Of a stretch of 45,356 nucleotides of DNA, positions 1,972 to 3,900 are shown piece by piece. The notes below the pieces were generated by a model. The model had not been told where the DNA came from. It did no database searches and was given only the letters and a program-made list of their open reading frames with translations. The stretch is from a virus, in IMG/VR virus record IMGVR_UViG_3300032224_001322, positions 1 to 45,356 of that record; one strand, given 5' to 3'. Every line of letters starts with the position of its first letter. Within the stretch, counting starts at the first letter, position 1. The position numbers and the translations under genes were made by a program.

Positions 1972-1977
1972 TATTGC

Positions 1978-2109
1978 CTATAACGGTTTGCGGCTTGGCG
2001 AAGGGCGGGATAAATAGCACTACTGATGAGTTATGTAGGAATGCTGCCAAAAGTGCAAATGCTCATTCTAATTACCGTCAGCCCGCCTTTTGCCAATATA
2101 TTGTTAGAT
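1978..2109 (+). repeat. attC-like recombination site 1
   Basis: This is an imperfect long palindrome in the style of an integron attC site. The left core is TATAAC-G near 1979-1985 and the right core is GTTAGAT at 2103-2109, fitting GTTRRRY. The inner arms are 1995-2009 (TTGGCGAAGGGCGGG) and 2082-2096 (CCCGCCTTTTGCCAA), which pair at 13 of 15 positions. The two mismatched positions are spread out, and a 72-base central part separates the arms. It marks the left edge of the cassette-like insert. Confidence 0.65.
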
Positions 2110-2176
2110 GCCGTTTTTAGTCAGCCTACAACCTGACAAATTGATTAAAAAAGTAAACTTATAAACTGACAAAAAA

Positions 2177-2440
2177 ATGAATATTGAAAAACAACAACAG
2201 GATTTAGTAGCTTCAATTAAGCACGAATTAGCAAAAGAAAATGAATTTTATAAGCCTTCATCTTTATGGCACTCTGTATGGTTTCAACCATCATCAGGTA
2301 GATTTTTATTTGCCGACCAATACACAAGATATGAAGTAATTGAGCCTTTGATTGAAAACAAAATTTTAGTTTTTGTCGGAGCAGAAAAACATCAAGGTGA
2401 AATAATGCTGAGGTATGTACTGTCTGTAAATGGCAGCTAA
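2177..2440 (+). CDS. cassette-borne hypothetical protein A
   Basis: The product is an 87-aa soluble protein, AT-rich in codons compared with the phage genes on both sides. I do not recognise a family. It has a Gln/Lys-rich amphipathic N-terminus, then 'SSLWHSVWFQPSSGRFLFADQYTRYEVI' and a short C-terminal strand region. The start follows an A-run typical of Bacteroidota. Its stop codon lies inside the left core of attC-like site 2 (CTAAC), the arrangement normal for integron cassettes. No dedicated promoter is obvious. Confidence 0.55.
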   Translation: MNIEKQQQDLVASIKHELAKENEFYKPSSLWHSVWFQPSSGRFLFADQYTRYEVIEPLIENKILVFVGAEKHQGEIMLRYVLSVNGS

Positions 2441-2529
2441 CGGTTTGCGTATATACGAGGTACGCCTTAACGAAATTTAAAATTATAAACAAATGCTTGT
2501 AGGCGTATCTTGTATATACGCTGTTAGGC
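2435..2529 (+). repeat. attC-like recombination site 2
   Basis: Cores AGCTAAC (2435-2441) and GTTAGGC (2523-2529) flank two 20-base arms at 2447-2466 and 2502-2521. The arms pair at 18 of 20 positions (GCGTATATACGAGGTACGCC against GGCGTATCTTGTATATACGC). About 35 AT-rich bases separate the arms. GTTAGGC is a perfect GTTRRRY core. This is the cleanest of the three sites. Confidence 0.75.
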
Positions 2530-2541
2530 GCAGTTAAAATT

Positions 2542-2766
2542 ATGGAAACGAAAGAAATAGTAGAATTGATGTTGAAATCATCAGACCACAACCCATACAC
2601 AGGGATGTTATCAAAAAAAGACAATTTAATCGCAGCAATTGATTTGGCTAAATTGTGTAAAGATTTTGCAGATAAAGGACATATGGATGAGGCAATGAAC
2701 ATTGGAAGCGAACAATGGGTTGTGGTCATTTATGAACTCAAAGGTATGTCGCTTAATTGCGCCTAA
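2542..2766 (+). CDS. cassette-borne hypothetical protein B
   Basis: The product is a 74-aa protein ('METKEIVELMLK', a central 'DLAKLCKDFADKGHMDEAM' helix and a C-terminal 'EQWVVVIYELKGM' strand). It is not recognised. It starts 12 bases after the right core of attC-like site 2. It ends inside the left core of site 3, where the TAA at 2764-2766 is part of GCCTAAC, so gene plus site make one compact cassette of about 360 bases. AT-rich like cassette A. Confidence 0.55.
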   Translation: METKEIVELMLKSSDHNPYTGMLSKKDNLIAAIDLAKLCKDFADKGHMDEAMNIGSEQWVVVIYELKGMSLNCA

Positions 2767-2892
2767 CGTTGAAGCATTGGCGATGGTTGGGAATTTGAAA
2801 AACAAATATTGAATAAAGTAATGAAGTTAAATAGTAGCACATCAGTTGAAAATCTGCAAGTCCGCCCAACTATTGCCAATGCAATGTTAGCA
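2761..2892 (+). repeat. attC-like recombination site 3
   Basis: The left core GCCTAAC (2761-2767) fits RYYYAAC exactly, and the right core is GTTAGCA (2886-2892). The arms 2774-2791 (GCATTGGCGATGGTTGGG) and 2865-2882 (CCCAACTATTGCCAATGC) pair at 16 of 18 positions. The right core contains the preferred start codon of the methyltransferase (ATG at 2884-2886, then TTAGCA), so the recombination point falls at the third base of that start codon. Confidence 0.7.
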
Positions 2893-3636
2893 GAAGTGGC
2901 GGTTTTCAACGAGGATGCCCTTCTCACGATGTCGGAAAGGATGCAAAGCAATGAGTTGGATTTAATACTCACTTCACCACCTTATTTCAATGCAAGGGAT
3001 TATTCTCAATACAAATCGGTGCAGGATTACTTGGCACAAATGAAAGAGATATTTACAATGGCATACGATAGACTTAAAGAAAGTAGAATGTGTGTTGTAA
3101 ATATATCGCCTGTGCTTGTAGAAAGAGAAAAGCGAAGCAAACAAAGCTATCGAATACCATTACCTTTTTACTTTGTGCCAATGATGGAAGAAATAGGTTT
3201 TGAATTTTTGGAAGATATTATATGGATGAAACCTGATGGCTCTGCACCAAATAGAAACGGTGGATTTTATAGGCATAGAAAACCTATTGCTTACAAGCCA
3301 AACATTGTTACTGAATACATTTTGGTATTTAAGAAACCTGCACCATTTCTAATTGATAAGGTTATTAAAAATGAAAGTTTGGTTGCTGATGGGTATGAAA
3401 GAACAAATGTTTGGCAATTTAATCCCGATACAAGTAACTGGCATCCTGCACCATTTCCCGAAGCACTGGCTGAAAGAGTAATTAAATACTACACATACGA
3501 AAATGATTTGGTTTATGATTGCTTTGCTGGAAGTGGAACTGTTGGAAGGGTTTGTCAGAAACTAAAAAGAAGGGCAATCCTTTCCGAACTAAAAACTGAA
3601 TATTACGCAAAAATGGTCGAGTTGAACGGATGGTAG
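2884..3636 (+). CDS. site-specific DNA methyltransferase (N4-C/N6-A, beta class order)
   Basis: This protein of about 250 aa would transfer a methyl group from S-adenosylmethionine to DNA bases. The catalytic motif IV, TSPPY, comes first (about residue 35, 'DLILTSPPYFNARDY'). The SAM-binding motif 'YDCFAGSGTVGRV' comes near the C-terminus (about residues 214-226), which is the beta-class order. The SPPY form is typical of N4-cytosine enzymes, although N6-adenine is not excluded. An in-frame ATG at 2809 exists, but the residues it adds are encoded by attC-like site 3, so 2884 is preferred. No restriction enzyme is adjacent, so it is an orphan, perhaps protecting phage DNA. It appears to be the last cassette of the array. 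Confidence 0.8.
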   Translation: MLAEVAVFNEDALLTMSERMQSNELDLILTSPPYFNARDYSQYKSVQDYLAQMKEIFTMAYDRLKESRMCVVNISPVLVEREKRSKQSYRIPLPFYFVPMMEEIGFEFLEDIIWMKPDGSAPNRNGGFYRHRKPIAYKPNIVTEYILVFKKPAPFLIDKVIKNESLVADGYERTNVWQFNPDTSNWHPAPFPEALAERVIKYYTYENDLVYDCFAGSGTVGRVCQKLKRRAILSELKTEYYAKMVELNGW

Positions 3637-3801
3637 CCATTTCTGCTAACTACTCCATTGCCGCAATATTGCGTGATATATACTACACAGAACAACGGCA
3701 ACTCCGAACAATTGCCGTAGATTTGTGCTACAGAGGTAAGGATGACGAATGGCTTCCTCAATAGACAATAGCGCATTGACATCCGGGAAAGACAGGAATA
3801 A
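3637..3801. other. non-coding stretch after the methyltransferase
   Basis: No ORF is supported. It holds a perfect 7-bp hairpin (ACGGCAA 3695-3701 with TTGCCGT 3712-3718, loop of ten), a 12-bp palindrome CGCAATATTGCG near 3662-3673 and the promoter at 3718-3725. A GCTAAC word at 3651-3656 resembles a left attC core. No matching right half with paired arms could be found, so a fourth site is not called. Confidence 0.4.
3718..3725 (+). promoter_or_regulatory. Bacteroidota-type promoter (-7 box TAGATTTG)
   Basis: TAGATTTG fits TAnnTTTG. Transcription would begin about 3730 and run through the tRNA-like element (3802-3900) into the genes from 3905 to 4952, which have no other clear promoter before the terminator at 5002. 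Confidence 0.5.
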
Positions 3802-3900
3802 CGTGAGAGCGCAAAGGAAGCGCAATTACTTGTTAGGGTGCGTACGGCCTGACCATAAATAGAAGCAAGTAATACGGGGGTTCGACTCCCTCTCTCACGG
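3802..3900 (+). ncRNA. tRNA-like structured RNA lacking a normal anticodon arm
   Basis: The outer parts fold like a tRNA. A 7-bp acceptor-like stem pairs CGTGAGA (3802-3808) with TCTCACG (3893-3899). A D-like arm has stems GCGC 3809-3812 and GCGC 3820-3823 around AAAGGAA. A T-arm GGGGG-TTCGACT-CCCTC (3876-3892) carries the TTCRANY loop. Where the anticodon arm should be, an 8-bp helix (ATTACTTG 3825-3832 with CAAGTAAT 3866-3873) encloses 33 bases with an inner hairpin (TTAGG/CCTGA). No 7-base anticodon loop is seen, positions 8-9 are missing and the variable region is only two bases. It ends four bases before the ATG at 3905. It may be a tRNA mimic or a decayed or inserted tRNA. Confidence 0.5.

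Follow-up and report, generated by a model that had tools for sequence, protein, structure and literature searches.

A three-cassette array in a tailed-phage genome points to a probable integron-like system shared by Bacteroidota and their phages

Positions 1982-3650 of the window (the whole 45,356-nt stretch analysed, from IMG/VR record IMGVR_UViG_3300032224_001322) are best read, with a probability that we put at roughly 0.8, as three mobile units—each a hairpin plus an open reading frame (ORF), one of them encoding a DNA methyltransferase—inserted at a fixed docking site and forming part of an integron-like system that Bacteroidota share with their phages. The array works like an integron cassette array; it is neither a classical IntI integron nor a proven attC cluster. 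Carrying this reading are the unit boundaries, a pairing rule within cassettes, empty and alternative docking sites, the linkage of a recombinase to an attI-like site in relatives, and a split in gene orientation between phages and chromosomes, all of which were observed directly.

The record is that of a tailed phage, with a terminase (phrog_6681) and a primase/helicase, and the array is bounded by the end of a phage gene at 1971 and by a conserved flank from 3651 (Table 1). Three imperfect palindromes of the form AAC...GTT, with right cores GTTAGAT, GTTAGGC, and GTTAGCA, are present as an earlier note on this DNA had described them, and the ORFs of cassettes 1 and 2 do stop within the TAAC of the following site, as it had also claimed. 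Its description of the cassettes as AT-rich relative to the phage holds too, with a GC content of 36.3% in the array versus 43.2% in the window, a value as low being reached by 0.9% of equal-length stretches. The array that it placed at 1978-2892 is real, its right-hand end having been drawn too short: the third cassette extends to 3650. This cassette encodes a 250-aa N6_N4_Mtase enzyme (Pfam E 1e-41) whose ATG overlaps the GTT core, and phage contig L008 carries a signature cassette with a methyltransferase 65% identical to it; in another phage contig (L004), a hairpin related to hairpin 3 (76% over 134 bp) precedes a different cassette. An Rfam scan of the array returned no credible family, the only match being a weak tRNA nearby.

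Table 1. Features of the cassette array, in window coordinates
Feature	Position	Strand	Basis
Left edge, cassette-end type ATTGCCTATAAC	1973..1984	+	Sequence; before first hairpin
Recombination-site hairpin 1, AACGGTTTGCGGCTTGGCG...GCCAATATATTGTT	1982..2105	+	Palindrome, pairing, and folding analyses
Cassette 1, ORF 2177-2440 (87 aa)	2103..2441	+	Start/end pairing; Pfam: none
Recombination-site hairpin 2	2439..2525	+	Inverted repeat of 21 nt, 90%; z -5.1 as single-stranded DNA
Cassette 2, ORF 2542-2766 (74 aa, no family)	2523..2767	+	14/16 start/end pairing, G/A at position 11
Recombination-site hairpin 3	2765..2888	+	Pairing and folding analyses
Cassette 3, DNA methyltransferase ORF 2884-3636	2886..3650	+	14/16 start/end pairing, G/A at position 11
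Right docking flank, AAC/TACTCCATTGCCGCAATATTGCGTGATATAT	3648..3682	+	Almost unchanged in sister phage L318 behind another cassette

Other features of the surrounding phage DNA include three tandem small ORFs directly left of the array (1313-1971), which are seemingly paralogous and share a C-terminal YY.xTYG-type motif, and, right of the docking site, a tRNA-like element (3802-3900, plus strand; Rfam tRNA, 30.3 bits) that ARAGORN does not find. This element has about 34 extra nt in its anticodon arm and is conserved in three related phages (the window, L023 at 2209-2311, and L015 at 1589-1691). Farther along, an ORF at 7453-7995 matches the phage ferredoxin family phrog_3704.

The cassettes obey a pairing rule: within each, the opening ~16 nt (GTT-N7-G...) are reverse-complementary to the closing 16 nt (...T-N7-AAC). 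Complementarity within cassettes 1, 2, and 3 reaches 12, 14, and 14 of 16 positions, versus at most 10 of 16 between cassettes, and among the 15,874 GTT/AAC pairs in the window only five attain 13/16, the top two being cassettes 2 and 3. At position 11, all three cassettes—cassette 1, for example, with start GTTAGATGCCGTTTTT against reverse-complemented end GTTAGCTGCCATTTAC—have G at the start and A in the reverse complement of the end, that is, a G/T wobble. When every start/end pair in all fetched Bacteroidota and phage loci was scanned, this G/A combination occurred in 254 pairs (the same 254 recur from the other strand), versus no more than 26 for any other combination of letters. The resulting family consensus is GTTA-N3-GCAGT...ATTGC-N3-TAAC with the wobble at position 11; as for the R-box form RYYYAAC / GTTRRRY, the right cores GTTAGAT and GTTAGGC conform to it and GTTAGCA does not. 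The family's hairpin form (AACGGTTT-stem...stem-T-GTT) is found in the window, where hairpins 1 and 2 begin AACGGTTTGC and hairpin 3 begins AACGTTG. Among sites retrieved by the AACGGTTTGC core, the right-hand spacer is T in 109 of 110; it is this single nucleotide in hairpin 2 and longer in hairpins 1 and 3.

Folding as single-stranded DNA was far better than that of shuffled sequences for the site at 2439 (z -5.1 for the top strand, -4.4 for the bottom), better on the top strand for the site at 2765 (z -2.7), and no better than shuffles for the site at 1982 (z -1.1, top). Pairing alone is therefore not the proof of these sites; what proves them is that a cassette start is complementary to the end of that cassette rather than to the opposite half of its site. 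Same-cassette ends indeed match far better than same-site halves, which attain at most 11/15 outside the core hairpin and were dropped as the main signal. We also dropped extended start/end pairing as a unique mark, having found same-cassette complementarity of 8-12 nt in a classical integron, that of Shewanella phage M16-3, where the letters at position 11 are not fixed. This control indicates that the complementarity principle is common to classical cassettes, and that only the fixed wobble at position 11 is distinctive. Two further control phages, TJE1 and PH101 (the latter over its first 50 kb), contained no signature pairs.

The window contains no tyrosine recombinase, in agreement with the earlier note's picture of mobile cassettes captured by a phage whose record lacks one, and a search of 18 phage records that are related or contain sites found none either. 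Among 46 site-bearing genomes, in contrast to a true IntI in only 3, nearly all encode an Xer/IntI-like recombinase. In many of them it lies about 100 bp from the array and is followed by a promoter motif that, judged by the family consensus, is of Bacteroidota type, then by an inverted repeat and by TATA-N5-GTT at the junction with the first cassette, a conserved attI-like site. The array-linked enzyme is a Phage_integrase protein with a SAM-like N-terminal domain (for the example in L173, the top NCBIfam match, recomb_XerA_Arch, falls just below cut-off). In its strict form, this attI-like motif (also written AAC-N5-TATA) is present no more than 600 bp away from 13 of 25 array-linked recombinase genes, against an expectation of 0.017. 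Because the first genomes had been picked for their sites, we repeated the linkage test from the recombinase side: in the phylum to which Flavobacterium SM15 belongs, 69 of 198 genomes contain a match to the recombinase profile with an E value of 1e-80 or below. At 20 loci picked by recombinase score alone, the attI-like motif and/or signature cassettes lie downstream in 17, visual inspection of the remaining 3 reveals the motif in a relaxed form, and signature cassettes lie upstream in none. With arrays checked in part of the 69 genomes, we estimate that the system is present in about a third of species.

These recombinases are distinct from IntI, with 93-94 residues between Arg I and the LRH motif in the chromosomal array-linked enzymes versus 135 in IntI, and the IntI-specific insertion is absent. 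In a tree, the array-linked recombinases fall on one side of a branch with support 96/90, apart from IntI and Xer, including XerC/D of Bacteroidota. The chromosomal enzymes (that at L173 7998-9068 and others) often have an extra N-terminal domain of about 80 aa with the motif RWSxTxKxWxxxD and no confident Pfam family; the phage recombinases that we found are shorter and without it. Three genomes (G042, G004, and G037; loci L146, L147, and L148) contain a true IntI gene besides sites of the family, which shows that the two systems can occur side by side.

Some phage contigs carry the recombinase next to their arrays—L177, with about nine cassettes, has it about 60 bp from the array end, three others (L201, L203, and L206) have it within about 400 bp, and further such contigs exist. 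Phages and chromosomes agree in which end of the array lies next to the recombinase, whereas the cassette ORFs run towards the recombinase in phages and away from it in chromosomes. Counting, here as elsewhere, with identical sequences collapsed and relatedness otherwise ignored, we found viral ORFs in the same sense as the signature in 147 cases versus 3 in the opposite sense, with the hairpin 5' of the ORF (the window included), whereas chromosomal ORFs showed 4 versus 75 with the hairpin 3' of the ORF. Relative to a classical cassette, in which attC lies at the 3' end of the ORF, the phage cassettes are thus inverted. The simplest reading is that the sites fix the polarity of insertion, and that each setting would keep those cassettes whose genes face its own promoter. 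Many phage ORFs start within the hairpin (e.g., ...FCQTDVSGS...). As for cargo, the 134 viral cassette proteins scanned yielded 23 matches to N6_N4_Mtase, 14 to DNA_methylase, 1 to Dam, and 1 to Mom, such that DNA-modification enzymes make up about 30% (39 matches), versus a single N6_N4 methyltransferase among the families shown for 77 chromosomal cassette proteins.

These data bear on the possibility that the array is a classical CALIN, in which ordinary integron cassettes were put into the phage by a host IntI integrase. Classical cassettes, too, have start/end complementarity within the cassette and a boundary of the G^TT type, and phage-borne CALINs exist: Qi et al. 2023 (PMC9892861) found 17 CALINs in 10,705 phages with IntI-attC models, and one site of Polaribacter phage P12002L—which we find to contain cassettes of the same signature—was recombined by IntI1 in E. 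coli. On the contrary, true IntI is rare in the site-bearing genomes, the arrays adjoin another type of recombinase, one that lacks the IntI insertion, position 11, variable in the classical control, is fixed here, and the phage cassettes are inverted, which together make the classical explanation improbable. The earlier note's wording of an integron-type attC array is not borne out in that form, given that the sites form a distinct Bacteroidota family, that the recombinase of relatives is not IntI, and that GTTAGCA, alone of the three right cores, lies outside GTTRRRY.

The integron-like reading also accounts for what is seen at the docking site in related phages. A check for empty sites and cassette variation, prescribed by the earlier note, proved positive: in two related phages (L023 and L015), both flanks are joined without the array, and in a sister phage (L018/L318), a single, different methyltransferase cassette occupies the identical spot. 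The enzyme encoded there shares with that of the window a best aligned stretch of 55 residues at 40% identity, and its cassette is followed by the same right flank, AAC/TACxCxATTGCCGCAATATTGCGTGATATAT; at the left edge, L318 has ATTGCTGATAAC in the place of 1973..1984. The docking flank from 3651 has no TATA at the distance seen in chromosomal attI, yet it is conserved in the sister phage. Beyond these phages, cassettes that recur identically in several contexts have their breakpoints at TAACG.../...TAACG or precisely at G^TTAGTGG, which defines the mobile unit as a hairpin plus the cassette to its right in window orientation; the palindrome, regarded by the earlier note as a separator of ORFs, hence travels with the ORF to its right rather than the one to its left. 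Both core complementarity within cassettes and a unit boundary at G^TT were found. One phage C5-methyltransferase cassette is 90-94% identical in six phage contigs, several of them breaking directly after AAC, and near 2000 and 3650 of L064, a cassette end joins non-hairpin DNA at G^TT, possibly through insertion at a secondary site.

At least 119 stretches of bacterial genomes, almost all of them from Bacteroidota, Ignavibacteria, or Chlorobi, contain the 20-nt core of hairpin 1, TAACGGTTTGCGGCTTGGCG, which other viral contigs contain too; as loci were collected via conserved hairpin cores or the recombinase profile, divergent members are under-sampled. A BLAST of the consensus site against named phages gave chance matches only. 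IMG/VR contigs may be fragments or misassigned, and two site-bearing contigs, one labelled as a Staskawiczbacteria MAG (L080, with phage-type cassettes including a methyltransferase) and one as a Klebsiella MAG (L066), were apparently wrongly binned.

Alternatively, the array might be a passive passenger, a block acquired once from host DNA through homologous or illegitimate recombination, with no site-specific recombination taking place in phages. The lack of a recombinase in the window phage and its relatives would fit such an origin, as would the AT-richness of the array, but in the sister phage another cassette ends at that same right junction, the same phage cassette recurs in many contexts with sharp junctions, and the phage cassettes form a separate, inverted pool, which argues that they are not recent copies of host arrays; we accordingly give passive entry little credence. 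That the hairpins are ordinary intergenic elements (terminators or REP-like elements) with chance core similarity can be practically dismissed, for although hairpins between small ORFs are common in phages and hairpin 1 is no more stable than shuffled sequence, this reading is contradicted by the pairing of cassette starts with their ends, by the position-11 rule, by the empty sites, and by cassette boundaries that are exact in many loci.

Returning to the integron-like system, we propose the following model. In a circular cassette, the end (T-N7-AAC), the hairpin, and the start (GTT-N7-G) would become contiguous, and as a single strand could fold into one long hairpin with two recombinase arms of ~10 bp, resembling a recombinase core site. 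The outer arm would be the cassette-specific N7 and the inner arm the conserved GCGGCTTGGC-type stem, the arms flanking a short asymmetric spacer (usually GGTTT versus T), and G/T pairs in the arms might tell the top strand from the bottom. An Xer/IntI-like tyrosine recombinase would presumably cleave at G^TT and integrate the cassette into a docking site or an attI-like site, such that cassettes could be gained, lost, and swapped. Since the window phage has no recombinase, the enzyme is presumably supplied in trans, by a host platform or another phage, or has been lost. By analogy with attC, recombination probably acts on a single-stranded substrate, and the combination in P12002L of signature cassettes with a site recombined by IntI1 (PMC9892861) makes functional kinship with attC likely. 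Phage transcription would read through the array, some ORFs starting inside the hairpin, and the likeliest role of the payload, above all of the DNA methyltransferases, is to shield phage DNA against restriction by the host.

More broadly, the evidence tilts towards Bacteroidota having a second kind of integron, based on an Xer-like recombinase rather than IntI and present in about a third of species, together with a mirror-image phage version that has a separate, exchangeable pool of anti-restriction methyltransferases and sometimes its own recombinase. The proportion of genomes with strong recombinase matches suggests that an important channel of gene exchange in this phylum may have gone unnoticed. 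Phages appear to trade DNA-modification genes by cassette machinery, in which case restriction escape would amount to cassette swapping, and the opposite gene orientation in phages and chromosomes offers a clear, testable rule tying cassette polarity to the direction of expression.

In the searchable literature, which leaves subscription journals and preprints outside, we found no prior description of this system under Bacteroidota cassette systems of integron-like or tyrosine-recombinase type, under phage attC sites, or under attG sites, and a survey with IntI-based tools recorded integrons in Bacteroidetes only rarely (PMC9024848). One close parallel is with the phage CALINs of Qi et al. 2023, which are likewise integrase-less phage cassette clusters with methyltransferase cargo; in the accessible part of that article, neither the position-11 rule nor the inverted orientation is reported, and the same holds for the Bacteroidota recombinase and its attI. 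Like XerA, XerC, and XerD, the array-linked enzyme combines a Phage_integrase domain with a SAM-like N-terminal domain, but unlike Xer, it adjoins cassette arrays, often has the N-terminal extra of about 80 aa, and occupies a branch separate from XerC/D of Bacteroidota. With classical integrons the system shares tandem small cassettes, hairpin sites, cassette-specific core complementarity, a G^TT boundary, and, in chromosomal relatives, an attI-like site beside a tyrosine recombinase. It differs from them in its recombinase, which has no IntI-specific insertion and clusters away from IntI, in sites of the form GTTA-N3-GCAGT / ATTGC-N3-TAAC whose wobble at position 11 is fixed, and in the shared direction of recombinase and cassette genes in the Bacteroidota chromosomes examined.
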